From the NCBI GenBank assembly GCA_037576195.1, contig CM075104.1:874775-938774 (forward strand): a stretch of DNA of 64,000 nt, in the 5' to 3' direction. This document shows positions 1 to 48,564 of the stretch, piece by piece. A program made the translations under genes and the position numbers. The notes beneath the pieces were generated by a model. The model saw only the letters and a list, made by a program, of their open reading frames with translations. It did not search any database and was not told where the DNA came from. Position 1 is the stretch's first letter; each line of letters begins with the position of its first letter. This DNA is from Phytoseiulus persimilis. Taxonomy: Eukaryota; Arthropoda; Arachnida; Mesostigmata; Phytoseiidae.

Positions 1-2
1 TG

Positions 3-803
3 AAGAACTGCAAAGCATCTCCTGTTCCAATCGATGCCACTTCGAAATCTGCCTTTGAGGGGGAAGTCGATCTCAGTCTCCCATATCGAGAACTAGTGGG
101 GGGTTTGATGTTCGCTTCCGTGGTAAGCCGAGCAGAAATTTCGTACAGCGTGAACATGTTGGCTCGACACCTGGAGAGGCCTACCAAACATCTCTGGAAC
201 CTTGGTCTCAAAGTATTGAGGTATCTGTCTGGAACACGCTATTTCGGTCCGAAATACACTGGTGATGTCTCTGATGGCATAATCGCATACAGTGATTCTG
301 ACTGGAGTGGGTGCAAGGCAACCAGAGGATCCACGAGCAGCGCATTCATCCTATTCGGAGGCGCGTGCGTAGTTTGGTCCTCAAAGAGACAAAACTGCAT
401 TTCGCTGAGCTCCATGGAAAGCGAGATCATAGCCTGTAGCGAAATGGGAAAGTCCGTGGTCTGGTTGACCCGCCTTCTGGGAGAGGTCGGATACCCAGTG
501 GTACCAACTCTTCGGGTGGACAACACAGGTTGTTTGAATCTCTTCACCACCACACAGGTCTCCAGAAAAAGTAAGCATATCGAAATTCGCTACTTTTGGA
601 TGAGAGAAAAGATTGAGGCTGGGGAGTTTAAAATCGAGCATTGTGTAACTGATAAGAACATCGCAGACATAGGAACTAAAGCTCTGCCTGAAACTCACTT
701 TGTGGCACTGCGGAATCTTGCAGGCATCAAAAACCATGTGGAGTTTCAAAGCAATCTTGGTGCTTCAGCTCGTGGCAACGGTCACCAGCTTCTTCGAGTA
801 TAG
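3..803 (+). CDS. pol: Copia pol 3' end: RT thumb and RNase H (copy A)
   Basis: The C-terminal part of a copia polyprotein is open from base 3 to the stop at 801-803. It includes the end of the reverse transcriptase, the RNase H segment with a SDSDWSGC motif (about 294-317), the WSSKRQNCISLSSMESE block, and a copia-like terminus containing ADIGTKALPETH. RNase H degrades the RNA strand during reverse transcription in the particle. No frameshift or stop lies in the visible part, unlike copies B and C. The last 68 bases overlap the start of the env-like ORF in another frame. The N-terminal domains lie off the left edge. Confidence 0.9.
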   Translation, partial: KNCKASPVPIDATSKSAFEGEVDLSLPYRELVGGLMFASVVSRAEISYSVNMLARHLERPTKHLWNLGLKVLRYLSGTRYFGPKYTGDVSDGIIAYSDSDWSGCKATRGSTSSAFILFGGACVVWSSKRQNCISLSSMESEIIACSEMGKSVVWLTRLLGEVGYPVVPTLRVDNTGCLNLFTTTQVSRKSKHIEIRYFWMREKIEAGEFKIEHCVTDKNIADIGTKALPETHFVALRNLAGIKNHVEFQSNLGASARGNGHQLLRV

Positions 804-1242
804 TTCCTGCTGTTTGCCCCTCTGCATACGGTCCAACCAACCATGCATGATCTCAGAATTGAGTCCAGAACACTTCCCAGTTGATTGCATCCTCACGTTG
901 GACGGCTGCAGAGAAAAAGCGTCACCAACGGTCGCATGTTTGTTTCCCGACGGACAGGTGTTTGGAGGCCAAGACATCTGGGAAGCGTATTACAACTATA
1001 CACATCCGAATCCACAAAATCCTGTTCCAAACCCATCAACAAAGACGAACTTTCTCCTACTTTACGCGGTAATCCTCACGACGATCGTAGTGATCTATGG
1101 CGGTACTAGCTGTTCCCGATGCGTCATTCAAACATGGCGTCGGCTGCAGTACCAGCGTCTCAGCACAGAAGATCAGCCTTCTGCTGCTGGGGCTAACATG
1201 AACACCGGCTCGCCCTATGGCGCCACCACTCAAAACATCTAG
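736..1242 (+). CDS. Env-like type I membrane protein of the copia element (copy A)
   Basis: A 168-residue ORF in a different frame from pol, starting at ATG 736, 68 bases before the pol stop. The predicted protein has an N-terminal signal-peptide-like stretch (AILVLQLVATV), a short ectodomain of about 85 residues with several Cys (CCLPLC, PCM, DC, DGC), a Pro/Asn-rich stalk, one membrane span (about residues 102-119, LLLYAVILTTIVVIYGG) and a polar tail of about 50 residues. This gives a type I topology. Copy C is intact over the same 168 codons and copy B is frameshifted. The position just 3' of pol is where env sits in retroviruses, hence 'env-like', but I see no recognised fusion-protein fold, so an entry role is inference only. 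It converges with the mucin-like gene, with 74 bases between the two stops. Confidence 0.78.
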   Translation: MWSFKAILVLQLVATVTSFFEYSSCCLPLCIRSNQPCMISELSPEHFPVDCILTLDGCREKASPTVACLFPDGQVFGGQDIWEAYYNYTHPNPQNPVPNPSTKTNFLLLYAVILTTIVVIYGGTSCSRCVIQTWRRLQYQRLSTEDQPSAAGANMNTGSPYGATTQNI

Positions 1243-1269
1243 GATTCGCTCATTCACGGTGATCTCTCA

Positions 1270-1275
1270 AATAAA
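1270..1275 (+). promoter_or_regulatory. AATAAA poly(A) signal after the env-like ORF (copy A)
   Basis: A canonical AATAAA lies 28 bases after the env-like stop codon and is conserved in copy C (22,661). It could end a sense transcript before the antisense genes. Function is inferred from motif and position. Confidence 0.45.
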
Positions 1276-1316
1276 CGGAAAGCAACTTCTAGCCAAATAA
1301 GAACACTCTCACTTCC

Positions 1317-2927
1317 TCATGAATAATACTTGACAAAATTTTTACATTGTTGGCCAAACTTGTCATGCTCATCATCAATGGCAAATTCTACATGTCCAAC
1401 ATATAGACGTACTGTCATTGTGTTCCTGAGCGGAGTTGTTCTCCGGACGAAAATGCAGATCTTGTTAATCAGCGACTTACAAATTCGATTGTAACTCATG
1501 ATCGTGCACTGGTACCGATTGACGGGTGTGTACAGAATCATTGGTGGCGGCTCGGTGATAACAACGCCCGGTGTTGTACTGTCAACATCAGTGACAGCCG
1601 GATCGGTTGAGGAAGTGGAGAGAAAGGACTTGGAAGTTTCATCGGTGGTTGATGACGGTCCTTCTGTAGTTGATGTTTCCAACTTGTCTTCAACGGTTGT
1701 TGATGTTGTAACGTCGGGAGCCTCTGAGGTAGTCGATGATGAAGCTTTCTTGGCCTGACCAGTGGTTGTCGTTGAGCGAACCGTTGTGAGGTTTGTGACA
1801 ACCGGCTTGCGAGGGGTGGTCGATGTTGTGGTTCCGACCGGCCTCAGGGTGGTACGTTGAGTCGGACGTGTCGTAGTCGTGATTCTAGTGGACACGTTCA
1901 TACGCACCGGGTTTGCCTCGAGGACGACGAGATCATCCGAGGTCTCAATCATGGCCTCTGGGCCAGATTTGCTCTTCTGTTCATTGACAGCCCGAGATTC
2001 TGCGATAGTCACAACCGATAGTGGTCTGGCGGAAAAAGAACGCACAGACACTGAGAACGAATGGATGGTGGATGATGGAGAAATCAGACTTGTCCAGCTG
2101 GTCATTCTGAGGGAGGATTTAGATTAGTGAACTCTGTCCCTCAATGATGGAGATGATGACCGGAACAACGCTGTAGTCTGAAGGACCCATGTTGGCTGAA
2201 TCAAGGTCGGCATTATGATACTCCGACGAGAAAGCCTTGGGAAAACTGAAGGCGTGACCACTCTGCGCTCAGAAGAAAGCTCAGCAAATCCCGAAGGTGA
2301 AACATTGAAAATGCTAGATCTATAAACAGGTTCAGGGAACGGAGATCTAGTAGACAGAAGATGTCTTGACTTTGATGAATCCATCTCACGACGGAGAGAA
2401 GCCCCGAGAAGATCCCTCTGGTAGGCTAACTTCTGCTCCGTTGTGAAAGTCGTCAAGCTTGCGGAAGTTTTGAGAGTACGCGTAGGCGAGATCATGGTTG
2501 AGATCACAGAAGGAACAACTGGTTCCGATGCAGAGTTAGATGATGTGAGTTCTGAAGGGACCGGAATCACATGCAGCAGAAAAAGAGCGGAAGATACCTC
2601 AAGCCACGTGGTCGATGGCTCAAGGGAAATTGAAGAACTGTCCATCGAGCGAGATGTAGACAACGAGAAAGACTCAGATGAGCAACACGCACTTTGATGA
2701 TCCTCTGGGCAAAGTGTTTGGTAAAAAGCACTCTCTTCATCCACTGATGAAAAGTCCGGATGTCTCACGGAAGGGAGCACATACGACACAAAGACTCCCC
2801 AAACGAAATAAAGACTGAGAGCTAAACTCAGCAGAAAGAGGATGACCCCGGCCACTCGGCTGGCCAGCGACTTGAATTGAGACATCGAGTTCATCGCAGA
2901 TATATTGTGAAATGTGGAAATCCACAT
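1317..2927 (-). pseudogene. Antisense mucin-like type II membrane protein (copy A, one stop)
   Basis: This is a 537-codon reading frame on the strand opposite to pol, starting at ATG 2,927. It is broken only by one TAA at about 2,124, where copy C has TAC (Tyr). The protein has a short basic N-terminus, a strong membrane span (residues about 24-50, VILFLLSLALSLYFVWGVFV), a long Ser/Thr-rich region typical of O-glycosylated stalks (many TTTT and SSS runs), and a C-terminal module with four Cys (QC, IC, KIC, QQC). The positive charge before the span suggests N-in, C-out. No homologous family is recognised. It lies 223 bases after the coiled-coil gene on the same strand and may share its transcript or use its own promoter. 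Confidence 0.7.
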
Positions 2928-3150
2928 CGAGTCAGGTCTTGTATACCTACGAACTCGATGAGAAAGGGGTCCCTCTGTCAACACAACTTGGAGTGTTGTG
3001 AGAGTTGTTATTTAATCCGACACGGATAGAAAATATGCATTCGTGGTCGTTGGATTACTCTGAGAAGCTGATCGGAGTATCGATAACTCTCGAAAAGCAT
3101 AAACAAACTCCTGAGATTGAAAACAAATGGTTTCTGCGATGGTTCATGTC

Positions 3151-4868
3151 TCAAGCGCGGACGCACTTGGACGCCGTCCCAGAGGGACTGCATGCTGTGG
3201 ACTTTACTGGAACACTGCATCTCAGAAAATGCGTCACGGGCGCATTACCATCAACAACCAGGCAGGTTTCTTCGTACCGATGTTTACAGGCCCAAGCATC
3301 GTCATAACGCTCGCACTGGAAATACAGCGTAGAGATTCTTTTGCTGGATGGTGGCGCCGCATCGGGGATGAGACTGCGGTCGGTAACAGGTTCCGGATCG
3401 ATCGGATTCTGCGATGGATTCGGATTGATTCTTGCTACTGAATCTAGAGAGTGGAACATGAGAATGTTTCCAGTTCCAACTGTAACAAAGCAGCGAATTA
3501 GTCAGTACCGGAGAAGATTGTTGAAACTACCATGGGTCTGTAAGACCGTCTCTGATCAAGAGAATTTGTGAATGACGTACCTGTGATCAGGAGGAGAAGA
3601 AATCCGATGATCCATTTGCGTTTCTTCACTATCGTTCGAGCATCCTGACGAATGGAGCTCCAGCGAGCAGTTGGTACATTCGTGCTCTCCACGTGTTCAC
3701 ACGGAACCCGAGTCGATTCTTCGGTTTGGGCCTCAGTTGACTGCAGGTTTTCGGCCATGGCGAGTCTCACGGAGTTGAGGGAGGACCGCTGAGATCTCAC
3801 TGTAGTTGAGAGCCGGTCCACCTCGGCCTGTTGAGAACGCACGCTGGTCGCAAGGCATGAAACAGTCGAGCCTAGTGTGGTGACTGCAGACGTGAGATTC
3901 TTAACCTCCGTGTTCAGGATACACTGCATCGAAACGACGTCGGGAGTATCTTTTCCAAACTTCGTGACCGTGGCAGATTGCTGATCCTGACGAGTTCGGA
4001 TGTCCTTGTCTGCTTGCTCCAGGCTTCGATGTCGTTGATTGGTACGGTCAGCGAAATCTCGAAAGGCTGAATCCATCCGAATGAGATGAACTTCGAAGTC
4101 TTGTTGACTATCTTGAACATCCTTGATTTGTTTCTTCACGAATTCAGAAATCATCTTGGAGTTCTCTTCGGCTTGACTCATGGAACGGCTCAGTTTCAAT
4201 AACTCGGCCTGAATCTCGGGGGACGCGCTCGGTTGAGATGAACCGACAGACTGCAGATCAATCGAAAGCTTGCCCAGGTCGTCATTAAGAGTGGTTAGCT
4301 CTTTTCTGAGACTGGCTGTAACTTCATGCAAGTAACTGATCTGTTCAGTCGTGGCCATGCTGTTTGCAAAGGCGTCCTGCCGTTCGATCAAAGCATCTTG
4401 AGCTGCTGCGCTCTGGACACTGACTCGGAGCTGTTTTTGCGATTCCACTTGGAGCTCTTCTATCGAATGAAGAATTGGCTTAATTTGTTCGGTGGATGCT
4501 ACAGACTCCGCGAAGAGATCAAGCTGTACCAGGAGTCGCGAGAAGTTGTCAGCGTTCTGATTCGTCCGGCTCACCAGCTCGCGAATTACTGTTTGCATGT
4601 CGCGGGTCGACGAAAGCTGGTTCACGCGGGAAATCATGTCGTTCCGATACAGTTCAATGTTGGTTTCCATGCGAGCGACACGATCCATGACTAAACGACT
4701 TTGGCTTTCAACCCGTGAAATCCCAACGACATTGGAGACGACAAACGAGCTTTCTCGCATCAAAGGTCCTACCGGTTGGCCAGCGGACTCTGGGGATGGG
4801 GCTGCCTCTGTCGATGTCATTGGATGGTCTTCGGACACGTTCACCATAGAGAGCTGTTCTTCGGACAT
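3151..4868 (-). CDS. Antisense coiled-coil membrane protein, two exons (copy A)
   Basis: Exon 1 runs 4,868-3,581 and exon 2 runs 3,479-3,151 on the minus strand, giving 538 residues. Residues about 30-400 are rich in heptad-like Leu/Ile/Val with Gln/Glu/Ser and few Pro, as in a long coiled coil. A basic KKRKW then precedes a membrane span (IIGFLLLLIT) that exon 2 extends. Exon 2 adds about 108 residues with eight Cys (for example FQCERYDDAWACKHRYEETC). Basic residues before the span suggest a cytosolic coiled coil and an exposed Cys-rich end. Without splicing, the frame continues 27 codons past the splice site to a stop at 3,498, so an isoform without the Cys domain is possible. Copy C has the same structure with no stops. 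Family unknown. The ATG is the first in frame. Confidence 0.72.
3480..3580 (-). other. Spliceosomal intron in the antisense coiled-coil gene (copy A)
   Basis: On the minus strand the donor is ACAG|GTACGT at 3,580. The acceptor is TTTGTTACAG at 3,480, preceded by CTGAC/CTAAT branch-like motifs about 20 bases upstream. Length is 101 bases. Removal keeps frame (phase 1) and joins the membrane span to a Cys-rich reading frame that is open to a stop at 3,151. The same sites occur in copy C (24,863-24,963). Because the sites lie only on the antisense strand, they cannot serve the genomic retrotransposon RNA. Confidence 0.72.
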
Positions 4869-5114
4869 GATCACAAGCTGAATCTTCGGAACGTAGGACG
4901 AAGGTACCTCTCAGTTCGTAGACTGAGGAGGGAATGAACAGCACCGTCTATGCAACGGGTTGGAGACGATCTCAGTCTCTAGCCGCGTTCTCAAATGTCG
5001 TGCTTGAAGTTTCAAATGTTGTGCACGTCCGCCTCATGGAGCGGGGTAGGTATTGAGTTTCTCGTTCACTTCTTGAAGAAGAAGAATACTCTGCATCGAG
5101 AAATTGGCCCAGTG

Positions 5115-5585
5115 ATGCCAAGCGACGAATAATACTCAAAAGCAAATCCTACTAAACTTTGGTGGCAATGACCAAATTTGTCAGTATCATTGAGATAAAG
5201 AGGATAGGAAGTGAATTGTTCCCAGTGGAACAAATGCCCTTTTCAGACTGATTCCATCTAAGGGAGGATGATGAAATATAGCCATATTTCTGGGTAGCTG
5301 GAATTGGTCTGAACCAATGCGAGGTCCAGAAGACGAGGACATTCTGACCGGAACCCTTTTCTGTGAGATACTGACAATGCCATCCATGAAGGACCTTCCG
5401 GTCTTCATGGACTGGCTCTTCTTTCCACAGTGGTATATATAACCCCAATGAAGCAATGCTCAGGGAGCTACTCTATTCTAACACTGAATCCCTGTCTCTT
5501 CATTGTGTGCCGTGCTCTTCCCATACTCTACAGATACTTCTAGGTGAGGTGTCACCAACTGAGCTACGTGGACCTTATTCCAACA
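5115..5585 (+). repeat. 3' LTR of copia copy A
   Basis: About 470 bases are shared with the end of copy C (about 26,513-26,972), and the last part with the start of copy B (6,747-6,918). The LTR carries a TATATATAA box near 5,433, an AATAAA-like site just downstream (here AATGAA; AATAAA in B and C) and ends in CCAACA. The left boundary is uncertain because no complete 5' LTR is available; similarity between A and C continues through the whole accessory region, so it cannot mark the edge. The purine-rich GAAGAAGAAGAA near 5,083 is a candidate polypurine tract. Confidence 0.75.
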
Positions 5586-5968: not shown

Positions 5969-6746
5969 TAATGACGACCTGGGCAAGCTTTCGATTGATC
6001 TGCAGTCTGTCGGTTCATCTCAACCGAGCGCGTCCCCCGAGATTCAGGCCGAGTTATTGAAACTGAGCCGTTCCATGAGTCAAGCCGAAGAGAACTCCAA
6101 GATGATTTCTGAATTCGTGAAGAAACAAATCAAGGATGTTCAAGATAGTCAACAAGACTTCGAAGTTCGTCTCATTCGGATGGATTCAGCCTTTCGAGAT
6201 TTCGCTGACCGTACCAATCAACGACATCGAAGCCTGGAGCAAGCAGACAAGGACATCCGAACTCGTCAGGATCAGCAATCTGCCACGGTCACGAAGTTTG
6301 GAAAAAGATACTACCGACGTCGTATCGACGCAGTGTATCCTGAACACGGAGGTTAAGAATCTCACGTCTGCAGTCACCACACTAGGCTCGAGTGTTTCAT
6401 GCCTTGCGACCAGCGTGCGTTCTCAACAGGCCGAGGTGGACCGGCTCTCAACTACAGTGAGATCTCAGCGGTCCTCCCTCAACTCCGTGAGACTCGCCAT
6501 TGCCGAAAACCTGCAGTCAACTGAGGCCCAAACCGAAGAATCGACTCGGGTTCCGTGTGAACACGTGGAGAGCACGAATGTACCAACTGCTCGCTGGAGC
6601 TCCATTCGTCAGGATGCTCGAACGATAGTGAAGAAACGCAAATGGATCATCGGATTCCTTCTCCTCCTGATCACAGGTACGTCAGTCACAAATTCTCTTG
6701 ATCAGAGACGGTCTTACAGACCCATGGTAGTTTCAACAATCTTCAT
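5969..6746 (+). pseudogene. Inverted fragment of the coiled-coil gene
   Basis: This is a partial copy of the antisense coiled-coil gene, now on the plus strand. It covers the C-terminal half of the coil, the KKRK membrane span and most of the intron, and retains the GTACGT donor. It is therefore a DNA-level copy, not one from spliced RNA. An extra A near 6,302 shifts the frame. It starts abruptly at TAATGACGACC and fuses at about 6,746 to the middle of an LTR. The intact genes run minus to plus-strand elements, so this piece has been inverted. Confidence 0.8.
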
Positions 6747-6918
6747 GGTTCTTTCCACAGTGGTATATATAACCCCAATAAAGCAATGCTCAGGGAGCTA
6801 CTACTCTATTCTAACACTGAATCCCTGTCTCTTTATTGTGTGCCGTGCTCTTCCCATACTCTACAGATACTTCTAGGTGAGGTGTCACCAACTGAGCTAC
6901 GTGGACCTTATTCCAACA
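6747..6918 (+). repeat. Truncated 5' LTR of copia copy B
   Basis: The last 172 bases of the LTR: the TATATATAACC box, CCCCAATAAAGC, the conserved 3' part and the CCAACA end at 6,918. The upstream LTR part is missing, replaced by the inverted coiled-coil fragment. The TATA box remains, but upstream promoter sequence is lost. Confidence 0.8.
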
Positions 6919-8150: not shown

Positions 8151-11100
8151 TCTACAATTGTGAGTTAGAGCAAGCAGAGACAAACAGCGTGACTCCAGAC
8201 AATGAGTTCACCGTGGACAGTGGAACGAATTTTCATATGATCAACTCCAAAGATCATTTGATCAACTACGTACCATATCCTCAGGCACGACAGGTCAGAC
8301 TTGGGGGTTCTAGGACTCTAAGCGCTCCTGGGTCCGGGACTGCCTGTGTGACCTTTGCGCAGAAGAATGGACAGCCCAAAACTGTTCTCCTGAAGGATGT
8401 ACTGTATGTTCCACGACTCCGTCGGAATCTCTTGTCAGTCTCGAAACTCACCGATGATAGTTTCGATATGCGGATCTGTCGGGATTCTATCCTCATGACA
8501 AAAGGGAAGATGACCATACGAGCGATTCGTAAAAATGGTCTCTACCTTCTGTACTCCACTGGAACGGCCGAAGGACTCAAAGCTGAGGGCAAAGAAGAGA
8601 AGAAGAAAAAGATCAGCCTAACAAAAGTGCACCGAACATTCGCCCACATATACGTAGGATGGCTCCAGTCAATGTTGGAGAGACGAGGCTATGAGGTGCT
8701 CAAGGATTTCACCAGCTGCGAGAGCTGTGTAAAAAGAAAAATGCATAGAGCGAGCTATCGATTAAAGCCGATGAGCTCCCGCGCCCCTCGGATCGAATAC
8801 ATCAGCAGTGATGTCTGTTTTGTGAGCACCATGTCCTACGGAGGACATCAAGCATTCCTCACATTGACTGACGACTACAGCCGCTTCCGTAAAACGTATT
8901 TCCTCCGGAACAAAGTGGAAGTCTACGATCGAGTAAAGGACTTCCTCAAATGGTTCAGGCTCAGAACCGGACAACAAGTGTATCATTTCCACTCGGACGG
9001 CGGGAGTGAGTTTGTCAACAGGAGATTGCAGTCACTCCTTACCTCAACAGGATGTGACTACTCCTACTCCCTCCCATACACACCGCAGCTCAACTCGATT
9101 AGTGAACGCCTGAATCGTACACTATTGAACCTCGCAAGAACCATGATTATCGACAGCCAGTTGAAGAAGGGGGTTTGGGGGGGGAAGCAATTTCATTTTC
9201 AACTTTCTGCCTGAATGTCACGAAATTCCTCGACCTCCTGGCAAGACCCCATTCGAAATCATCACTGGTCACAAGCCCTATCTGGGTAGAGTTCTGAGGT
9301 TCGGAACCCGCTGTTGGTTCTACAATATCAAGCCTGACAAAACGAAGCTGGATCAGAGAGCCATCGCAGGAGCAGTCGCTGGCATCGACGAAGACGGTCT
9401 CAGTTACCGTGTACTCGAACTTGGAACGACCAGGATTCATCGTATCCGAGATATCCTAGTGAAGGAACCAGCACCCCTGTTCGAGGAAGAAAATCAACTT
9501 CCCGATGAAACTTCACAGAATTCCCCATCAACGGATAGCAACGAGCCCCCAGCGAATGATGAAGAACCCTCTCCCAGCGACGCCGGCGGCCGAGACAGCG
9601 CCGATGACGACAGCAACGACTGGAGTGGAGAGAGAAATGTGGATGTCGAATTGGGGATCGGCCCGCATGATGTGCCCGGCGGTCCGACACCGCCTGCCGT
9701 AAGTTCGCGCGAACAGAGACACCAAGGAAAACTCCGGCAACGGCGAGTGAAAAATCCGAGGGACGCAAGTATGCCTTGAGAAGTAGAGAAACTCTCAAGA
9801 AGCCGGATAGGTACCAGGCAGGGTTAGCCTTCCTTGCCACTAGTAGCGCTACGAAGTCTAACAAGACAAGCGAAACATTAGGCAGTTCAGAACAAGAGGT
9901 AGACGTACCTTCATGCCTAGCTGATGTTAATCGCTCTAAGTACAAAAAGGATTGGCTCGCCGCAATGGCTTCGGAGCTAGAATCATTCAAGAGTAATGAG
10001 GTTTATCAGCTCGTAGATCCCGAGCCAGGACTGCATGTCCTTTCGAATCATTGGATCTTTTCCTTGAAGTTTAACAAGGATGGCCAGATAGTGAGAAGGA
10101 AAGCTCGACTTGTCCTTGGAGGGCACAGACAGAGAGCCGGGCTTGACTATGATACCCTGTTCTCGCCGGTTGCAAAGTACGAGACCATACGTACTGTCTG
10201 TCAATGTGCGCCCAAGGAAAGATTGTGGATTTGGCAAGCCGATGTATCCACTGCCTTCCTATCTGCCCCACTGGACCGTACTCTATACATGAAACAGCCA
10301 TCGGGAATGGAAGATGGAACTGGAAGAGTATGTAAGCTACTCAAAGCGATATACGGAGCGGTCCAAAGTCCCCTTTGCTTCAACAAGAAGCTGAATGACA
10401 CATTGCTAAACTTGAAATCCGTGAAACTCACGAGGAGCAACCTCGACCCATGCCTCTATTTCTCAAACAGACCAAACAGAGTTTTCATCTTGGTTTATGT
10501 CGATGATTGCCTGATCGCATCTGACAAAGAACAAACCAATGATGAGTTGGTCAAGGAACTCCAAGAGACGTTTGAACTCACCGCGAAGCCACTGGAATTC
10601 TTCTTGGGAATGAGGATTGAAATCTCCCCAGACCGAGGAACTATCCAGGTCAACCAGGCTCAATACATAGCAGCAATTGCTAGACCGTTTCAACATGAAG
10701 AACTGCAAAGCATCTCCTGTTCCAATCGATGCCACTTCGAAATCTGCCTTTGAGGGGGAAGTCGATCTCAGTCTCCCATATCGAGAACTAGTGGGGGGTT
10801 TTGATGTTCGCTTCCGTGGTGAGCCGAGCAGAAATTTCGTACAGCGTGAACATGTTGGCTCGACACCTGGAGAGGCCTACCAAACATCTCTGGAACGTTG
10901 GTCTCAAAGTATTGAGGTATCTGTCTGGAACACGCTATTTCGGTCCGAAATACACTGGTGATGTCTCTGATGGCATAATCGCATACAGTGATTCTGACTG
11001 GAGTGGGTGCAAGGCAACCAGAAGATCCACGAGCAGCGCATTCATCCTATTCGGAGGCGCGTGCGTAGTTTGGTCCTCAAAGAGACAAAACTGCATTTCG

Positions 11101-11500
11101 CTGAGCTCCATGGAAAGCGAGATCATAGCCTGTAGCGAAATGGGAAAGTCCGTGGTCTGGTTGACCCGCCTTCTGGGAGAGGTCGGATACCCAGTGGTAC
11201 CAACTCTTCGGGTGGACAACACAGGTTGTTTGAATCTTTCACACCACCACACAGGTCTCCAGAAAAAGTAAGCATATCGAAATTCGCTACTTTTGGATGA
11301 GAGAAAAGATTGAGGCTGGGGAGTTTGAAATCGAGCATTGTGTAACTGATAAGAACATCGCAGACATAGGAACTAAAGCTCTGCCTGAAACTCACTTTGT
11401 GGCGCTGCGGAATCTTGCAGGCATCAAAAACCATGTGGAGTTTCAAATCAATCTTGGTGCTTCAGCTCGTGGCAACGGTCACCAGCTTCTTCGAGTATAG
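8151..11500 (+). pseudogene. pol: Copia pol, copy B: PR-IN-RT-RNase H with frameshifts
   Basis: Domains in order are: aspartic protease (VDSGTNFHM, about 8,213); GAG-pre-integrase with a zinc-binding-like H..H..C..C block (VHRTFAHIY to SCESCVKRKMH); integrase core with DDE residues in SDVC, HSDGGSEF and SERLN (8,810-9,110); an acidic linker; reverse transcriptase (SNHWIFSLKF, QADVSTAFL, YVDDCLIAS at about 10,497); and RNase H ending ADIGTKALPETH before the stop at 11,498. The reading frame changes near 9,190, 9,715, 10,680, 10,790 and 11,240, so the copy is dead. PR-IN-RT-RH order is diagnostic for Ty1/copia. Confidence 0.88.
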
Positions 11501-11949
11501 TTCCTGCTGTTTGCCCCTCTGCATACGGTCCAACCAAACCATGCATGATCTCAGAATTGAGTCCGGAACACTTCCCAGTGGATTGCATCCTCACGTTGGA
11601 TGGCTGCAGAGAAAAAAAGCGTCACCAACGGTCGCATGTTTGTTTCCCGACGGACACGTGGGTTGGAGGCCAAGACATCTGGGAAGCGTAGTACAACAAC
11701 TATACACATCCGAATCCACCAAATCCTGTTCCAAACCCATCAACAAAGACGAACTTTCTCCTACTTTACGCGGTAATCCTCACGACGATCGTAGTGATCT
11801 ATGGCGGTACTACTAGCTGTTCCCGATGCGTCATTCAAACATGGCGTCGGCAGCAGTACCAGCGTCTCAGCAGAGAAGATCAACCTTCTGCTGCCGGGGC
11901 TAACATGAACACCGGCTCGCCCTATGGCGCCACCACTCAAAACATCTAG
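11433..11949 (+). pseudogene. Env-like ORF, copy B (frameshifted)
   Basis: Homologous to the env-like ORF at 736-1,242. The ATG at 11,433 and the signal-peptide region are conserved. An extra A near 11,539 shifts the frame, and further small insertions follow (AAAAAA near 11,613, extra bases near 11,660 and 11,696). The tail still ends in the same GATTQNI-coding stretch. Confidence 0.75.
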
Positions 11950-12023: not shown

Positions 12024-12352
12024 TCATGAATAATACTTGACAAAATTTTTACATTGTTGGCCGAACTTGTCATGCTCATCATCAATGGCAAATTCTTCAT
12101 GTCCAACATATAGATGTACTGTCATTGTGTTCCTGAGCGGAGTTGTTCTCCGGACGAAAATGCAGATCTTGTTAATGAGCGATTTACAAATTCGATTGTA
12201 ACTCATGATCGTGCACTGGTACCGATTGCGGGTGTGTACAGAATCATTGGTGGCGGCTCGGTGATAACAACGCCCGGTGTTGTACTGTCAACATCAGTGA
12301 CAGCCGGATCGGTCGATGAAGAGGAGAGAAAGGACTTGGAGGATTCATCGAT
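12024..12352 (-). pseudogene. Antisense mucin-like gene, copy B (3' fragment)
   Basis: The C-terminal part of the mucin-like gene, with the four-Cys end, is cut at about 12,352, where the 45-bp minisatellite begins. A one-base deletion near 12,229 (relative to 1,522 and 22,912) breaks the frame. Comparison with copy C around 23,030 places the breakpoint to within a few bases. Confidence 0.75.
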
Positions 12353-12983
12353 TCCGGGGTCAATCTGAGCATTACTCCCCAACTCTGGAGGGGTGATTCC
12401 GAGACCAATCTGAGCATTACTTTCCAACTCTGGAGGGGTGATTCCGGGGTCAATCTGAGCATTACTTTCCAACTCTGGAGGGGTGATTCCGAGACCAATC
12501 TGAGCATTTCTTTCCAACTCTGGGGGGGTGATTCCGGGCTCAATCTGAGCATCACTTCCCAACTCTGGAGGGGTGATTCCGGGGTAAATTCGAGCATTAT
12601 TTCCCAACTCTGGAGGGGTGATTCCGGGGTAAATCTGAGCATTACTTTCCGACTCTGGAGGGGTGATTCCGGGGTCAATCTGAGCATTACTTTCCAACTC
12701 TGGAGAGGTGATTCCGGGGTCAATCTGAGCATCACTTTCCAACTCCGGAGCGGTGATTCCGAGACCAATCTGAGCATTACTTCCCAACTCTGGAGGGGTG
12801 ATTCCGGGGTCAATCTGAGCATTACTTTCCAACTTTGGAGGGGTGATTCCGAGACCAATCTGACCATACTTTTCAAAATCGGAATGCTGACCCAGTGGAG
12901 GGAGAGAAAAGTGCCTCGATGGCAGGGAGCGCCGTCCAAGCGCGCGCAGCGCGGCCGACTCCAGTCGGCCAAAGGCCGGCTGG
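12352..12983 (+). mobile_element. 5'-truncated Helitron-like minisatellite element
   Basis: About 11 copies of the 45-bp unit are followed by a unique 3' module (about 12,870-12,983). That module ends in a perfect 8-bp-stem hairpin (GGCCGACT at 12,953 with AGTCGGCC at 12,963), 9 bases, then CTGG followed by T. This matches the Helitron 3' signature (hairpin, then CTRR, insertion before T). The 5' end is missing and the array joins directly to the mucin-like gene of copy B. Confidence 0.6.
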
Positions 12984-12995
12984 TAATATATATAA

Positions 12996-15900
12996 TCGGC
13001 TTAGTCTGTCAGTTTGTCAGTTTGTAAGTTTGTCAGTTTGTCAGTTTGTCTGTCAGTTTGTCCGCACTTTTTCTGAAAGACATGAAGGTGATTCTGGGAC
13101 CAATCTGAACATATTCTCCCGAGTCTGGAGAGGTGATTCCGGTACGAGTCTGACTATACTTTTCAAAAGCTGGAGGGGTGATTCTAGAACCAATCTGACC
13201 ATACTTTTCAAAACGTGGGGGGGTGAATCCAGAACCAATCTGACCATACTTTTCAAAACGTGGAGGGGTGATTCTAGAACCAATCTGACCATAGTTTTCA
13301 AAACGTGGAGGGGTGATTCCGAGACCAATCTGACCATTACTTTCCAACTCCGGAGGGGTGATTCCGAGACCATTCTGAGCATTACTTCCCAACTCTGAAG
13401 GGGTGATTCCGAGACCAATCTGAGCATTACTTCCCAACTCTGGAGGGGTGATTCCGAGACCAATCTGAGCATTACTTTCCAACTCTGGAGGGGTGATTCC
13501 GAGACCAATCTGAGCATTACTTCCCAACTCTGGAGGGGTGATTCCGAGACCAATCTGAGCATTACTTCCCAACTCTGGAGGGGTGATTCCTGGGTCAATC
13601 TGAGCATTACTTTCCAACTCTGGAGGGGTGATTCCGAGACCAATCTGAGCATTACTTTCCAACTCTGGGGGGGTGATTCCGAGACCAATCTGAGCATTAC
13701 TTTCCAACTCTGGAGGGGTGATTCCGAGACCAATCTGAGCATTACTTTCCAACTCTGGAGGGGTGATTCCGAGACCAATCTGAGCATTACTTTCCAACTC
13801 CGGAGGGGTGATCCCGAGACCATTCTGAGCATTACTTCCCAACTCTGAAGGGGTGATTCCGAGACCAATCTGAGCATTACTTCCCAACTCTGGAGGGGTG
13901 ATTCCGAGACCAATCTGAGCATTACTTTCCAACTCTGGAGGGGTGATTCCGAGACCAATCTGAGCATTACTTCCTAACTCTGGAGGGGTGATTCCGAGAC
14001 CAATCTGAGCATTACTTCCCAACTCTGGAGGGGTGATTCCTGGGTCAATCTGAGCATTACTTCCCAACTCTGGAGGGGTGATTCCGAGACCAATCTGAGC
14101 ATTACTTTCCAACTCTGGAGGGGTGATTCCGAGACCAATCTGAGCATTACTTTCCAACTCTGGAGGGGTGATTCCGAGACCAATCTGAGCATTACTTTCC
14201 AACTCTGGAGGGGTGATTCCGAGACCAATCTGAGCATTACTTCCCAACTCTGGAGGGGTGATTCCGGGCTCAATCTGAGCATTACTTTCCAACTCTGGAG
14301 GGGTGATTCCGAGACCAATCTGAGCATTACTTCCCAACTCTGGAGGGGTGATTCCGAGACCAATCTGAGCATTACTTTCCAACTCTGGAGGGGTGATTCC
14401 GAGACCAATCTGAGCATTACTTTCCAACTCTGGAGGGGTGATTCCGAGACCAATCTGAGCATTACTTTCCAACTCTGGAGGGGTGATTCCGAGACCAATC
14501 TGAGCATTACTTCCCAACTCTGGAGGGGTGATTCCGGGCTCAATCTGAGCATTACTTTCCAACTCTGGAGGGGTGATTCCGAGACCAATCTGAGCATTAC
14601 TTCCCAACTCTGGAGGGGTGATTCCGAGACCAATCTGAGCATTACTTTCCAACTCTGGAGGGGTGATTCCGAGACCAATCTGAGCATTACTTCCCAACTC
14701 TGGAGGGGTGATTCCGAGACCAATCTGAGCATTACTTCTCAACTCTGGAGGGGTGATTCCGAGACCAATCTGAGCATTACTTCCCAACTCTGGAGGGGTG
14801 ATTCCGGGGTCAATCTGAGCATTACTTTCCAACTCTGGAGGGGTGATTCCGGGGTCAATCTGAGCATTACTTTCCAACTCTGGAGGGGTGATTCCGAGAC
14901 CAATCTGAGCATTACTTCTCAACTCTGGAGGGGTGATTCCGAGACCAATCTGAGCGTTACTTCCCAACTCTGGAGGGGTGATTCCGGGCTCAATCTGAGC
15001 ATTACTTTCCAACTCCGGAGGGGTGATTCCGAGACCAATCTGAGCATTACTTCCCAACTCTGGAGGGGTGATTCCGAGATCAATCTGAGCATTACTTCTC
15101 AACTCTGGAGGGGTGATTCCGAGACCAATCTGAGCATTACTTCCCAACTCTGGAGGGGTGATTCCGGGGTCAATCTGAGCATTACTTTCCAACTCTGTAG
15201 GGGTGATTCCGGGGTCAATCTGAGCATTACTTTCCAACTCTGGAGGGGTGATTCCGAGACCAATCTGAGCATTACTTCTCAACTCTGGAGGGGTGATTCC
15301 GAGACCAATCTGAGCGTTACTTCCCAACTCTGAAGGGGTGATTCCGGGCTCAATCTGAGCATTACTTTCCAGCTCCGGAGGGGTGATTCCGAGACCAATC
15401 TGAGCATTACTTCCCAACTCTGGAGGGGTGATTCCGAGACCAATCTGAGCATTACTTTCCAACTCTGGAGGGGTGATTCCGAGACCAATCTGGGCATTAC
15501 TTCCCAACTGTGGAGGGGTGATTCCGAGACCAATCTGAGCATTACTTCTCAACTCTGGAGGGGTGATTCCGAGACCAATCTGAGCATTACTTTCCAACTC
15601 TGGAGGGGTGATTCCGGGGTCAATCTGAGCATTACTTTCCAACTCTGGAGGGGTGATTCCGGGGTCAATCTGAGCATTACTTTCCAACTCTGGAGGGGTG
15701 GTTCCGAGACCAATCTGAGCATTACTTCCCAACTCTGGAGGGGTGATTCCGGGCTCAATCTGAGCATTACTTTCCAACTCTGGAGGGGTGATTCCGAGAC
15801 CAATCTGAGCATTACTTCCCAACTCTGGAGGGGTGATTTCGGGCTCAATCTGAGCATTACTTCTCAACTCTGGAGGGGTGATTCCTGGGTCAATCTGAGC

Positions 15901-18900: not shown

Positions 18901-19078
18901 TGGGTCAATCTGAGCATTACTTTCCAACTCTGGAGGGGTGATTCCGAGACCAATCTGACCATATATTTCAAAATCAGAATGCTGAACCAGTGAAGGGAGA
19001 GAAAAGTGCCTCGATGGCAGAGAGCGCCGTCCAACCGCGCGCAGCGCGGCCGACTCCAGTCGGCCGAAGGCCGGCTGG
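12996..19078 (+). mobile_element. Helitron-like non-autonomous element filled with a 45-bp minisatellite
   Basis: The element appears to start with TC after A (12,995) and to end with hairpin (19,048-19,065), 9 bases and CTGG before T (19,079), as in Helitrons, which end 5'-TC...CTRR-3' between A and T. A 5' module with about seven CAGTTTGT-like repeats (13,010-13,065) precedes roughly 130 units of 45 bp. No Rep/helicase gene is present, so it would be mobilised in trans. The 3' module is nearly identical to that at 12,870-12,983. The exact 5' edge is less certain than the 3' edge. Confidence 0.55.
13090..18960. repeat. 45-bp minisatellite array with higher-order structure
   Basis: About 130 tandem units contain aactctggaggggtgattcc plus a variable hexamer (GAGACC, GGGGTC, TGGGTC, GGGCTC) and a TTTCC/TTCCC/TTCTC variant. 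Because 45 is a multiple of 3, several frames stay open over kilobases. On the minus strand 13,033-18,162 is open for 1,709 codons with a 15-residue period (SNAQIGLGITPPEL type). I do not annotate this as a gene, since two other frames are also largely open and no start, signal peptide or splice evidence is seen. The first units (13,090-13,330) are more diverged and carry ACCATACTTTTCAAAA variants. Confidence 0.9.
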
Positions 19079-19359
19079 TGCCTGATAATTTCCTTCAGGG
19101 TTCTGCAAGGGCTGTCGGCGATTGCTATGTCGCCTGGTATGATGGATCCCAAGTTCATACTTCTCAACAGCTGTCGATTGTGGTCACCGAAACAAGCACG
19201 GAAGATTGCTACCTGTTTGGCTGGAGTTTGAGCATATATTTCTTCCACCAAAGCGTAGTCTGTGAAAGCCTCCTTGAAGTCATTCTAGGCCTCGCTGTTG
19301 TCTGATGCTTGAAGGGCTCGGAACGCTTCTGGTTGTCGAGTTTTCTTCTTTTCTGCCAT
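19079..19359 (-). pseudogene. gag: Gypsy-type Gag N-terminus, fragment
   Basis: From an ATG at 19,359 on the minus strand the frame reads about 93 codons with one TAG. The composition resembles the start of Ty3/gypsy Gag: a basic start, a Phe/Tyr helical core, and KQVAIFRACFGDHNRQLL, similar to the 'K..A.L....G' pattern of capsid helices. It is cut by the Helitron-like element at 19,079. Assignment is by pattern only. Confidence 0.4.
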
Positions 19360-19583: not shown

Positions 19584-22194
19584 ACTGACAACTACAGCCG
19601 CTTCCGTAAAACGTATTTCCTCCGGAACGAAGTGGAAGTCTACGATCGAGTGAAGGACTTCCTCAAATGGTTCAGGCTCAGAACCGGACAACAAGTGTAC
19701 CATTTCCACTCGGACGGCGGGAGTGAGTATGTCAACAGGAGATTGCAGTCACTCCTTACCTCAACAGGATGTGACCACTCCTACTCCCCCCCATACACAC
19801 CGCAGTTCAACTCGTACACTATTGAACCTTGCAAGAACAATGATTATCGACAGCCAGTTGAAGGAGGGAGTTTGGGGGGAAGCGATTTCGTCTTCAACTT
19901 TCTGCCTGGATGTCACGACATTCCTCGATCCTCCTGGCAAGACCCCATTCGAAATCATCACTGGTCACAAGCCCTATCTGGGTAGAGTCCTGAGGTTCGG
20001 AACCCGCTGTTGGTTCTACAATATCAAGCCTGACAAAACCAAGCTGGATCAGAGAGCCATCGCAGGAGCAGTCGTTGGCATCGACGAAGACGGTCTCAGT
20101 TACCTTGTACTCGAACTTGGAACGACCAGGATTCATCGTATTCGAGATATCCTAGTGAAGGAACCAGCACCCCTGTTCGAGGAAGAAAAACAACTTCCCG
20201 AAGAACCTTCACAGAATTCCCCATCAACGGATAGCAACGAGCCTCCAGCGAATGGTGAAGAACCCTCTCCCAGCGACGCCGGCGGCCGAGACAGCGCCGA
20301 TGACGACAGCAACGACTGGAGTGGAGAGAGAAATGTGGATGTCGAATTGGGGATCGGCCCGGATGATGTGCCCGGCGGTCCGACACCGCCTGCCGTAAGT
20401 TCGCGCGAACAGAGGACACCAAGGAAAACTCCGGCAACGGCGAGTGAAAAATCCGAGGGACTCAAGTATGCCTTGAGAAGTAGAGAAACTCTCAAGAAGC
20501 CGGATAGGTACCAGGCAGGGTTAGCCTTCCTTGCCACTAGTAGCGCTACAAAGTCTATCCAGACAAGCGAAACATTAGGCAGTTCAGAACAAGAGGTAGA
20601 CGTACCTTCATGCCTAGTTGATGTTAATCGCTCTAAGTACAAAAAGGATTGGCTCGCCGCAATGGCTTCGGAGCTGGAATCATTCAAGAGTAATGAAGTT
20701 TATCAGCTCGTAGATCCCGAGCCAGGACTGCTTGTCCTTTCGAATCATTGGATCTTTTAATTTAAGTTCAACAAGGATGGCCAGATAGTGAGAAGGAAAG
20801 CTCGACTTGTCCTTGGAAGACACAGACAGAGAGCCGGCCTTGACTATGATACCCTGTTCTCAACGGTTGCAAAATACGAGACCATTCGTACTGTCCTGTC
20901 AATGTGCGCCAAGGAAAGATTGTGGATTTGGCAAGCCGATGTATCCACTGCCTTCCTATCTGCCCCACTGGACCGTAGTCTTCACATGAAACAGCCATCG
21001 GGAATGGAAGATGGAACTGGAAGAGTATGAAAGCTCCTCAAAGCGATGTACGGAGCGGTCCAGAGTCCCCTTTGCTTCAACAAGAAGCTCAATGACACAT
21101 TGCTAAACTTGAAATCCGTGAAACTCACGCAACCTCGAGCAACCTCGACCCATGCCTCTATTTCTCATACAAACCCAACAGAGTTTTTATCTTGGTTTAT
21201 GTCGATGATTGCCTGATCGCATCCGACAAAGAACAAATCAATGATGAGTTGGTCAAGGAACTCCAAGAGACGTTTGAACTCAACACGAAGCCACTGTAAT
21301 TCTTCTTGGGAATGAGGATTGAAATCTCCCCAGACCGAGGAACTATCCAGGTCAACCAGGCTCAATACCTAGCAGAATTGCTAGACCGTTTCAACATGAA
21401 GAACTGCAAGGCATCTCCTGTTCCAATCGATGCCACTTCGAAATCTGCCTTCGAGGGGGAAAGTCGATCTCAGTCTCCCACATCGAGAACTTGTTTTGAT
21501 GTTCGCCTCCGTGGTGAGACGAGCAGAAATTTCGTACAGCGTGAACATATTGGCTCGACATCTGGAGAGGCCTACCAAACACCTCTGGAACGTTGGTCTA
21601 AAAGTATTGAGGTATCTGTCTGGAGCACGCTATTTCGGTCCGAAATACACTGGTGATGTCTCTGATGGCATAATCGCATACAGTGATTCTGACTGGAGTG
21701 GGTGCAAGGCAACCAGAAGATCCACGAGCAGCGCATTCATCCCATTCGGAGGCGCGTGCGTAGTTTGGTCCTCAAAGAGACAAAACTGAATTTCGCTGAG
21801 CTCCATGGAAAGCGAGATCATAGCCTGTAGCGAAATGGGAAAGTCCGTGGTCTGGTTGACCCGCCTTCTGGGAGAGGTCGGATACCCAGTGGTACCAACT
21901 CTTCGGGTGGACAACACAGGTTGTTTGAATCTCTTCACCACCACACAGGTCTCCAGAAAAGGTAAGCACATCGAAATTCGCTACTTTTGGATGAGAGAAA
22001 AGATTGAGGCTGGGGAGTTTGAAATCGAGCATTGTGTGACTGATAAGAACATCGCAGACATAGGAACTAAAGCTCTGCCTGAAACTCGCTTCGTGGCGCT
22101 GCGAAATCTTGCAGACATCAAAAAACATGTGGAGTTTCAAAGAAATCTTGGCTCTTCAGCTCGTGGCAACGGTCACCAGCTGCTTCGAGTATAG
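19584..22194 (+). pseudogene. pol: Copia pol, copy C (5' truncated, frameshifts and stops)
   Basis: Starts inside the integrase core (DNYSRFRKTYFL equivalent of 8,870). It keeps HSDGGSEY but lacks the segment with the third catalytic residue near 19,815. The linker and RT follow (YVDDCLIAS at about 21,200) and then RNase H. Stops or shifts occur near 20,758, 21,028, 21,130, 21,298, 21,470 and 21,787. The final part is open to the stop at 22,192 and overlaps the env-like ORF as in copy A. Confidence 0.85.
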
Positions 22195-22633
22195 TTCCTG
22201 CTGTTTGCCCCTCTGCATATGGTCCAACCAACCATGCATGATCTCAGAATTGAGTCCGGAACACTTCCCAGTGGATTGCATCCTCACGTTGGATGGCTGC
22301 AGAGAAAAAGCGTCACCAACGGTCGCATGTTTGGTTCCCGACGGACAGGTGTTTGGAGGCAAAGACATCTGGGAAGCGTATTACAACTATACACATCCGA
22401 ATCCACCAAATCCTGTTCCAAACCCATCAACAAAGACGAACTTCCTCCTACTTTACGCGGTAATCCTCACGACGATCGTAGTGATCTATGGCGGTACTAG
22501 CTGTTCCCGATGCGTCATTCAAACATGGCGTCGGCAGCAGTACCAGCGTCTCAGCAGAGAAGATCAACCTTCTGCTGCCGGGGCTAACATGAACACCGGA
22601 TCGCCCTATGGCGCCACCACTCAAAACATCTAG
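22127..22633 (+). CDS. Env-like type I membrane protein (copy C, intact)
   Basis: 168 codons from ATG 22,127, the same length as copy A and colinear with it. Signal peptide, Cys-bearing ectodomain, Pro/Asn stalk (NPPNPVPNPSTK), a membrane span and a tail ending GATTQNI are all kept. The pol reading frame beside it is badly broken, yet this ORF has no lesion. Against copy A most differences are conservative. It starts 68 bases before the pol stop. Confidence 0.78.
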   Translation: MWSFKEILALQLVATVTSCFEYSSCCLPLCIWSNQPCMISELSPEHFPVDCILTLDGCREKASPTVACLVPDGQVFGGKDIWEAYYNYTHPNPPNPVPNPSTKTNFLLLYAVILTTIVVIYGGTSCSRCVIQTWRRQQYQRLSREDQPSAAGANMNTGSPYGATTQNI

Positions 22634-24533: not shown

Positions 24534-26251
24534 TCAAGCGCGGACGCACTTGGACGCCGTCCCAGTGGGACTGCATGCTGTGGACTTTACTAAAACACTG
24601 CATCTCAGAAAATGCGTCACGGGCGCATTGCCATCAACAACCAGACAGGTTTCTTCGTACCGATGTTTACAGGCCCAACCATCGTCATGACGCTTGCATT
24701 GGAAATACAGCGTAGAGATTCTTTTGCTGGATGGTGGCGCCGCATCGGGGATGAAACTGCGGTCGGTTACAAGTTCCGGGTCAATCGGATTCTGCGATGG
24801 ATTCGGAATGATTCTTGCTCCTGAATCCAGAGAGTGGAACATGAGAATGTTTCCAGTTCCAACTGTAACAAAGCAGCGAATTAGTCAGTGCCGGAGAAGA
24901 TTGTTGAAACTACCATGGGTCTGTAAGACCGTCTCTGATCAAGAGAATTTGTGACTGACGTACCTGTGATCAGGAGGAGAAGAAATCCGATGATCCATTT
25001 GCGTTTCTTCACTATCGTTCGAGCATCCTGACGAATGGAGCTCCAGCGAGCAGTTGATACATTCGTGCTCTCCACGTGTTCACTCGGAACCCGAGTCGAT
25101 TCTTCGGTTTGGGCCTCAGTTGACTGCAGGTTTTCGGCAATGGCGAGTCTCACGGAGTTGAGGGAAGACCGCTGAGATCTCACTGTAGTTGAGAGCAGGT
25201 CCACCTCAGTCTGTTGAGAACGCACGCTGGTCGCAAGGCATGAAACATTCGAGCCTAGTGTGGTGACTGCAGACGTGAGATTCTTAATCTCCGTGTTCAG
25301 GATACACTGCATCGAAACGACGTGGGTAGTATCTTTTCCAAACTTCGTGACCGTCGCAGATTGCTGATCCTGACGAGTTCGGATGTCCTTGTCTGCTTGC
25401 TCCAGGCTTCGATGTCGTTGATTGGTACGGTCAGCGAAATCTCGAAAGGCTGAATCCATCCGAATGAGACGAACTTCGAAGTCTTGTTGACCATCTTGAA
25501 CATCCTTGATTTGTTTCTTCACGAATTCGGAAATCATCTTGGAGTTCTCTTCGGCTTGACTCATGGAACGGTTCAGTTTCAATAACTCGGCCTGAATCTC
25601 GGGGGACGCGCTCGGTTGAGATGAGCCGATAGACTGCAGGTCAATCGAAAGCTTGCCCAGGTCGTCATTAAGAGGGGTTAGCTCTTTTCTGAGACTGGCT
25701 GTAACTCCATGCAAGTAACTGATCTGTTCAGTCGTGGCCATGCTGTTTGCAAAGGCGTCCTGGCGTTCGATCAAAGGCTCTTGAGCTGCTGCGCTCTGGA
25801 CACTGACTCGGAGCTGTTTTTGCGATTCCACTTGGAGCTCTTCTATCGAATGACGAATTGGCTTAATTTGCTTGGTGGATGCTACAGACTTCGCGAAGAG
25901 ATCAAGCTGTACCAGGAGTCGCGAGAAGTTGTCAGCGTTCTGATTCGTCCGGTTCACCAGCTCGCGAATTACTGTTTGCATGTCGCGGGTCGACGAAAGC
26001 TGGTTCACGCGGGAGATCATGTCGTTCCGATACAGTTCGATGTTGGTTTCCATGCGAGCGACACGATCCATGACTGAACGACTTTGGCTTTCAACCCGTG
26101 AAATCCCAACGACATTGGAGACGACAAACGAGCCTTCTCGTATCAAAGGTCCCACCGGTTGGCCAGCGGACTCTGGGGATGGGGCTGCCTCTGTCGATGT
26201 CATTGGATGGTCTTCGGACACGTTCACCATGGAGAGCTGTTCTTCGGACAT
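24534..26251 (-). CDS. Antisense coiled-coil membrane protein, two exons (copy C, intact)
   Basis: Exon 1 is 26,251-24,964 and exon 2 is 24,862-24,534 on the minus strand, for 538 residues, the same as copy A. The long coiled-coil region, KKRKW, the membrane span across the exon junction, and a C-terminal domain with conserved Cys (QCKRHDDGWACKHRYEETC) are all present. Amino-acid differences from copy A are scattered and leave the frame, splice sites, membrane span and exon-2 cysteines unchanged. If the intron is kept, the frame stops soon after the span (24,881). The cassette is intact here although pol is dead. Confidence 0.75.
24863..24963 (-). other. Spliceosomal intron in the antisense coiled-coil gene (copy C)
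   Basis: Donor ACAG|GTACGT at 24,963 and acceptor TTTGTTACAG at 24,863 on the minus strand; 101 bases, phase 1, identical in position to copy A. Confidence 0.72.
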
Positions 26252-26509: not shown

Positions 26510-26972
26510 CATATTACTCAAAAGGAAATCCTACTAAAACTTTGGTGGCAAAGACCGAATTTGTCAGTATCATTGAGATATAGAGGATAGGAAGTGAATT
26601 GTTCCCAGTGGAACAAATGCCCTTTTCAGACTGATTCCATCTAAGGGAGGATGATGAAATATAGCCATATTTCTGGGTAGCTGGAATTGGTCTGAACCAA
26701 TGCGGGGGCCATAAAACGAGGACCGGAATTCTGACCGGAACCCTTTTCTGTGAGATACTGACAATGCCATCCATGAAGGACCTTTCGGTTTTCATGGACT
26801 GGCTCTTCTTTCCACAGTGGTATATATGACCCCAATAAAGCAATGCTCAGGGAGCTACTCTATTCTAACACCGAATCCCTGTCTCTTTATTGTGTGTCGT
26901 GCTCTTCCCATACTTTACAGATACTTCTAGGTGAGTTGCCACCAACTGAGCTACGTGGACCTTATTCCAACA
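26510..26972 (+). repeat. 3' LTR of copia copy C
   Basis: Colinear with 5,115-5,585: TATATATGACC box near 26,820, CCCCAATAAAGC, and CCAACA end at 26,972. It is inserted in a gypsy pol on the minus strand. The left edge is uncertain, as for copy A. Confidence 0.75.
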
Positions 26973-48503: not shown

Positions 48504-48564
48504 AGAGTACCTGTGAGTAGGTATAAGTGCAAATACTTCCTTTTGACATCGGTCCCACTTGGCC

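Follow-up and report, generated by a model that had tools for sequence, protein, structure and literature searches.

Sense and antisense membrane-protein genes between pol and the 3' long terminal repeat of copia elements in the Phytoseiulus persimilis genome

Introduction

Can an animal copia element carry membrane-protein genes on both of its strands? Animal copia elements are, to our knowledge, generally regarded as containing gag-pol only and as being confined to the cell. The question is raised by a 64,000-nucleotide stretch of the Phytoseiulus persimilis genome (assembly GCA_037576195.1, contig CM075104.1, positions 874,775 to 938,774), hereafter called the window. The window corresponds to C4:874775-938774 of the 181-Mb genome, and the genome-wide counts given below cover that whole genome. 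Three element copies (A, B, and C) in the window exhibit accessory genes between pol and the 3' long terminal repeat (LTR). Judged by their sequences, these include old and selected antisense membrane-protein genes of a non-plant copia lineage, several of which are predicted to be spliced.

Organisation of copies A, B, and C

The start of copy A lies upstream of the window, and its gag-pol, which is open without interruption over 1,484 codons (L011:3124-7578), ends at window position 803. Pfam matches within this frame are to copia gag, zinc knuckle, Pol_BBD, integrase, and RVT_2. The matches above the cut-off in L011:3124-7575 are Retrotran_gag_2 (100-247), rve (586-681), and RVT_2 (985-1228). 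Copy A is assigned to Ty1/copia (Pseudoviridae) because the integrase lies upstream of RVT_2 and the gag is of the copia type. Copy A also has the TG...CA LTRs and the polypurine tract of a Ty1/copia LTR element. The LTR that precedes gag-pol is 96.9% identical to the 3' LTR. Immediately before the 5' LTR of copy A, a further member of its family ends, which indicates that the upstream copies are in tandem with LTRs common to neighbours. About 4.4 kb between pol and the 3' LTR hold three accessory genes, one in sense and two in antisense. The features of the three copies are as follows, where ORF denotes open reading frame and TM denotes transmembrane segment.

Copy A
1..803, + strand: 3' end of gag-pol, the frame of which starts upstream of the window at L011:3124
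736..1242, + strand: sense ORF of 168 amino acids with signal peptide, cysteine-rich ectodomain, and TM; overlaps the end of pol by 68 nucleotides
1317..2927, - strand: mucin-like gene, broken into ORFs 2124-2927 and 1317-2105
3151..3479, - strand: coiled-coil gene, predicted exon 2 with cysteine-rich ectodomain and stop
3480..3580, - strand: predicted phase-1 GT-AG intron of 101 nucleotides
3581..4868, - strand: coiled-coil gene, predicted exon 1 with coiled coil, then TM
5260..5268, + strand: polypurine tract, aagggagga, directly before the 3' LTR
5269..5585, + strand: 3' LTR of 317 bp, TG...CA

Copy B
9995..10693, + strand: RVT_2 match
11433..11946, + strand: broken sense ORF
12027..12227, - strand: remnant of the mucin gene (C-domain)

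Copy C
21805..22194, + strand: 3' end of broken pol
22127..22633, + strand: sense ORF of 168 amino acids
22708..24318, - strand: mucin-like gene of 536 amino acids with N-terminal TM, Ser/Thr-rich stalk, and C-terminal cysteine domain
24534..24862, - strand: coiled-coil gene, predicted exon 2 with cysteine-rich ectodomain and stop; splicing would give a protein of 538 amino acids
24863..24963, - strand: predicted phase-1 GT-AG intron of 101 nucleotides
24964..26251, - strand: coiled-coil gene, predicted exon 1
26652..26972, + strand: 3' LTR

The original prediction described a copia family with one sense and two antisense membrane-protein genes. The ORFs of copies A and C and the genome-wide pairing given below confirm this description. 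The common order that it claimed is found in copies A and C and partly in copy B, but the mucin-like gene of copy A is broken and is not an intact gene of 536 codons. Copy C is also a Ty1/copia LTR element, and there the 536-codon mucin gene is open as predicted. All three accessory genes of copy C are open although its pol is broken, which likewise agrees with the prediction. The pol frame extends 65-74 nucleotides beyond the start of the sense ORF in eight of the 11 loci examined, and the remaining three loci have an earlier stop in the pol frame.

An inverted piece at 5969-6744 is a 97-100% complementary copy of part of the copy A coiled-coil gene. It directly precedes a truncated LTR and the start of the copy B gag at 6749.

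Distribution of the accessory genes across the genome

The search of the genome for RVT_2 resulted in 443 candidates, 150 of which were scored. The sense ORF lies 0.2-2.2 kb downstream on the same strand in 96 of these 150 matches, mostly 690-830 bp away, and an opposite-strand sense ORF follows none of them. The search with the copy C sense ORF resulted in 212 candidates, and its 150 scored places include relatives down to about 24-30% identity. The sense-ORF queries from L033 and L035 had 152 and 134 matches, respectively.

The mucin C-domain query (77 amino acids) identified 59 places in the genome. Among them, 53 sit 79-245 bp past a sense ORF on the opposite strand, six are unpaired, and none lies within 3 kb of a sense ORF on the same strand. 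The layout is therefore beyond chance, given 53 opposite-strand places versus none on the same strand. The F3 coiled-coil ORF query identified 68 places. Within 6 kb, 53 of them show the side and strand that the layout predicts, and the other 15 are unpaired. The family search finds the cassette at many loci, which rules out a single transduced locus.

Eleven family groups were sampled (F1-F4, L033-L036, L037 with L040-L042, L038, and L039). An antisense gene with a domain of the YxC...C...C(L/I/V) type is present in ten of them. In F1-F4, L033, L034, and L036 the domain was recognised from homology or a motif, in L035 and L037 from visual inspection and alignment, and in L038 from a match in the mucin C-domain search. 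L039, of which 3.85 kb were examined, has only a different antisense ORF of 187 amino acids. The number of antisense genes varies from one to three among the families. The arrangement, which was originally attributed to one family, is real but reaches further, into several divergent copia families.

Several further observations concern these families. L037:731-1409 and L039:683-1246 (- strand) represent a third type of antisense gene that is apparently related between both families and has no Pfam match. A sense ORF of 294 codons with a coiled-coil look follows the sense membrane ORF at L034:927-1811 (+ strand). The 3-kb antisense stretch of the L037 family has three copies at 99-100% identity (query included) and eleven further full-length copies at 89-96%, and its remnants are found in the window at 56912-57308, 57705-57761, and 57946-59059. 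A lone coiled-coil gene with both exon regions is located near a GH32 glycosidase gene (L043:2495-3911, C2:47.29 Mb). It has one frame break and one in-frame stop, and no sense ORF, mucin gene, or pol was found within 7 kb of it. This lone copy may be what is left of an element, or a host copy that has decayed.

Predicted introns of the antisense genes

The coiled-coil gene has an open frame of 456 codons (3498-4868 in copy A and 24881-26251 in copy C, both on the - strand) that stops shortly after the TM, and the conserved cysteine-rich piece comes next in a different frame. Donors and acceptors were ranked by a simple home-made score. The top-scoring frame-consistent GT-AG intron of copy C is the one of 101 nucleotides, and its removal yields exactly 538 codons. 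The originally predicted 538-codon protein is exact only if this intron is removed.

Six gene groups have a candidate phase-1 intron immediately after the TM. Its predicted length is 101 nucleotides in F1, 86 in F3, 78 in F4 (L030 and L032), 78 in L034, 88 in L035, where it ties with a 196-nucleotide candidate of identical phase, and 79 in the L033 mucin gene.

Features of the accessory proteins

The 16 aligned sense ORFs have 162-183 amino acids, four invariant cysteines, and two further cysteines that are nearly invariant. About 85 residues separate the signal peptide and the TM in F1. The structure model of the sense protein has a mean predicted local distance difference test score (pLDDT) of 73.6; within residues 21-90 the block means are higher, at about 86-94.

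The mucin proteins have a hydrophobic segment near the N-terminus, 27-31% Ser+Thr, and a C-terminal cysteine domain, the structure model of which has a pLDDT of 92.0 and a predicted template modelling score (pTM) of 0.79. The heptad-range periodicity of the coiled-coil proteins is above all 500 shuffles in three F1 copies. For F3 one of 500 shuffles reaches it, and for three F4 copies the corresponding numbers are 7, 18, and 29. We infer a type II membrane topology for the antisense proteins.

The profile alignment of mucin C-domains with coiled-coil ectodomains has a probability of 67% and an E value of 5e-5 over 55 columns. This alignment suggests, without proving, that the mucin and coiled-coil genes share one common ancestor, and the L033 mucin gene, which has its predicted intron at the corresponding position, fits that ancestry. 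The searches with the sense and coiled-coil proteins found no relative among 5.8 billion proteins, where pol gave 1,968. No Pfam family was found in nine accessory proteins at E 0.1, and the second scan gave none over the cut-off.

Selection on the accessory genes

The ratios of nonsynonymous to synonymous change (dN/dS) were obtained by Nei-Gojobori counts on intact ORFs. The sense ORF has a dN/dS of 0.17-0.33 between families where dS can be estimated (dS 1.1-3.2, near saturation), and of 0.26 to 1.92 within families. The ratios within families are 0.18-0.71 (F1) and 0.33 (F4) for the mucin gene, and 0.54-0.88 (F1) and 0.18-0.60 (F4) for the coiled-coil gene. Both antisense genes are saturated between families.

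One-sided binomial tests were performed on seven chosen pairs, with p values uncorrected for the choice of pairs. The p values are 0.019 and 0.0039 for the sense pairs, 0.011, 0.069, and 2e-4 (the last from F4) for the mucin pairs, and 0.061 and 5e-5 (the latter from F4) for the coiled-coil pairs.

The comparison of L037 with L040-L042 gave a dN/dS of 0.06-0.25 for antisense gene 1 (p 0.043 to 3.5e-4). Antisense gene 2 has 0.23-0.24 against L040 and L041 (p 7e-10 and 5e-11), with no counterpart scored in L042, and gene 3 of this family together with the alternative frame has 0.22-0.75. The ORFs are shorter in L040-L042 than in L037, which indicates that L040-L042 are partly decayed. Between L037 and L040/L041, the gene 2 proteins are 69-70% identical and those of the adjoining gene 1 are 98-99% identical, as if the copies were mosaic.

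The dN/dS is mostly below 1, and significantly so in several families, although some close pairs of sense ORFs exceed 1. Together with the exclusion of a single transduced locus, this outcome favours the original prediction against the conditions set for its refutation.

Possible roles of the accessory proteins

At the level of sequence, this work demonstrates the layout, the conservation across families, the excess of silent changes, and candidate splice sites that are consistent with the frame. The explanation that we propose is as follows. The sense strand encodes gag-pol and then a small predicted type I membrane protein. In the region from pol to the 3' LTR, the antisense strand holds one to three genes for membrane proteins, which resemble copies of one type II gene. 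The ancestral plan of that gene would comprise a cytoplasmic part, a TM, a phase-1 intron, a stalk, and a cysteine-rich ectodomain, from which mucin-like and coiled-coil forms would derive. The antisense genes would have their own transcription, starting near the 3' LTR, and would be spliced, and their placement would make expression separable from that of gag-pol. The intron would persist through transposition, since the element is copied from sense-strand RNA, where the intron cannot be spliced.

The accessory proteins would be located at the cell surface or in the membrane of the particle. Attachment and membrane contact may be the joint task of the sense protein and the mucin-like type II protein. 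The coiled-coil protein may connect the membrane with the particle or the cell cortex, which would help the element to pass from cell to cell, such as from soma to germ line. Our best guess is a surface or cell-to-cell-transfer role, to which the topology, the cysteine-rich ectodomains, the mucin stalk, and precedent point. The two-way gene layout combined with this role is the best explanation we can offer, and we give it, taken as a whole, about an even chance of being right. A further proposal is tentative: this non-plant copia lineage would follow an ambisense plan in which retrovirus-like surface proteins are split over both strands (type I in sense; type II in antisense, separately transcribed and spliced), act jointly in attachment and membrane contact, and allow virus-like transmission between cells.

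Several results weigh against this explanation. No sense ORF was found within the tested distance of 54 of the 150 scored RVT_2 matches, which lack the gene, are truncated, or have a form of it too divergent to be detected. A 137-nucleotide intron candidate of copy A, with its acceptor 36 nucleotides further, slightly outscores the one of 101 nucleotides, and for L029 and the L033 coiled-coil gene the donor/acceptor scan gave no good candidate. The TM hydropathy is below the threshold in the coiled-coil proteins of copies A and F4_29, and by simple hydropathy also in L029 and the L026 sense ORF. AATAAA or ATTAAA occurs within 500 nucleotides past the mucin stop in only two of nine antisense genes. 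Several close sense-ORF pairs have a dN/dS near or above 1, with few changes. No known fusogen or receptor-binding protein was matched in Pfam or PDB sequences, and among viral glycoproteins two structure comparisons found no informative match. The earlier interpretation is partly supported overall.

Other explanations have to be weighed with these results. The accessory proteins may be real membrane proteins that act within the host, where they would alter the cell surface, block superinfection, or serve as decoys against host defence. We regard this as possible, though somewhat unlikely. It is in line with the fast-changing mucin stalk, which is under weaker constraint within F1, with the number of antisense genes, which varies per family like that of accessory genes, and with ASP of human immunodeficiency virus type 1 (HIV-1), an antisense membrane protein still without known function (PMC10186651). 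However, the sense and antisense genes are retained jointly over several divergent families, like parts of one device. It is improbable that the antisense region is mainly regulatory, with antisense RNA or proteins that control element expression as proposed for the plant Retand elements and demonstrated for HBZ. The closest plant precedent does have antisense ORFs at the same position between pol and the 3' LTR (PMC11963269, PMC7264820), but the features conserved here are TMs and cysteine-rich domains and not nucleic-acid-binding domains, and within the antisense frames the changes fall preferentially at silent sites.

Alternatively, an ancestral element may have captured a host or viral gene once, the descendants of which would now be passengers without a role in the life cycle. 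The presence of an intron and the lone L043 copy beside the GH32 gene would fit such a capture. Passenger genes would decay, whereas the silent-site bias and the repeated retention in divergent families speak for maintenance, and the lone copy, with its frame break and in-frame stop, may itself be an element relic; we consider this capture quite improbable. Long ORFs can also arise by chance opposite coding sequence or some other constraint, and parts of the regions looked at first are stop-poor on both strands. Chance is scarcely credible here, as the antisense region is not opposite pol, it is the antisense frames that show the homology, the cysteine pattern, the intron position, and the silent-site bias, and the mucin C-domain is predicted to fold.

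Most scored copia RVT_2 matches of this one genome precede a membrane-protein gene, and many carry selected antisense ones too. If the genes are expressed, they would represent a second, unrelated route by which LTR elements could gain surface proteins. The layout would also offer a clear reason for an intron-bearing gene in a retroelement, that is, its antisense position, which leaves it unspliced in the copied RNA. Movement of copia elements between cells becomes testable.

Other features of the window

A tandem repeat array of about 45 bp per unit occupies 12302-19158 (- strand) and holds an antisense ORF of 1,709 codons (start to stop 13033-18162). Similar 15-residue repeats adjoin L026 and L033. 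The window also holds a 342-codon ORF for a mariner/Mos1-type transposase at 52829-53857 (+ strand), an ORF with an RVT_1 reverse transcriptase match at 60205-61491 (+ strand), and the copia-type gag ORF of another element at 48559-49302 (+ strand). The exact telomere repeat TTAGG x6 was not found in the whole genome.

Comparison with known systems

Plant copia elements with env-like ORFs are of the Sirevirus type. The env-like sense ORFs of plant copia elements that are discussed in PMC7264820 and PMC5408684 are similar to the sense ORF described here in that they follow pol and have TM features. They differ in that the available texts of both papers report no antisense membrane-protein genes. 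No arrangement such as the present one appears in the available texts of PMC5408684 (rotifer ORF3s), PMC3212995 (Anopheles gambiae copia), and PMC12440569.

The MDG1-group Metaviridae encode sORF2, a small FAST-like TM protein in sense, for which cell-to-cell transfer without Env is presented as a model (PMC11952523). Both sORF2 and the sense ORF are small sense TM proteins of animal LTR elements. The sORF2 proteins have 63-107 amino acids, an ectodomain of about 30 residues, and, in the search used there, the N-myristoylation motif MGxxxS/T, with motif-less variants noted (PMC11952523). The sense ORFs in this work are instead copia proteins of 162-183 amino acids with a signal peptide, a cysteine-rich ectodomain of about 85 residues, and antisense partners, and none of the 16 aligned members begins with MG. 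The sORF2 system is in sense only.

Among retroviruses, ASP of HIV-1 is a membrane protein encoded in antisense that is present both at the cell surface and on the viral envelope, with an unknown role, and HBZ of human T-cell leukaemia virus type 1 (HTLV-1) is an antisense regulator that acts on transcription (PMC10186651). Both are encoded antisense to gag-pol as in the present elements, and ASP shares the membrane location. ASP, however, overlaps env and belongs to a recent lineage, whereas the copia elements have several antisense genes in a region of their own that are old in the element group.

The plant Ty3/gypsy elements Retand, Grande, and RIRE2 also have antisense ORFs between pol and the 3' LTR, which mostly encode a TRP28 domain with predicted DNA binding and suggested regulatory roles (PMC11963269, PMC7264820). 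No TRP28 (PF04195) domain was found in the nine accessory proteins scanned against Pfam at E 0.1. Both systems exhibit extra ORFs antisense to gag-pol at the same position, retained in most copies. Compared to the plant Ty3/gypsy elements with TRP28, the elements in this work have the copia domain order, membrane proteins with cysteine-rich ectodomains, predicted introns, and a sense membrane-protein gene.

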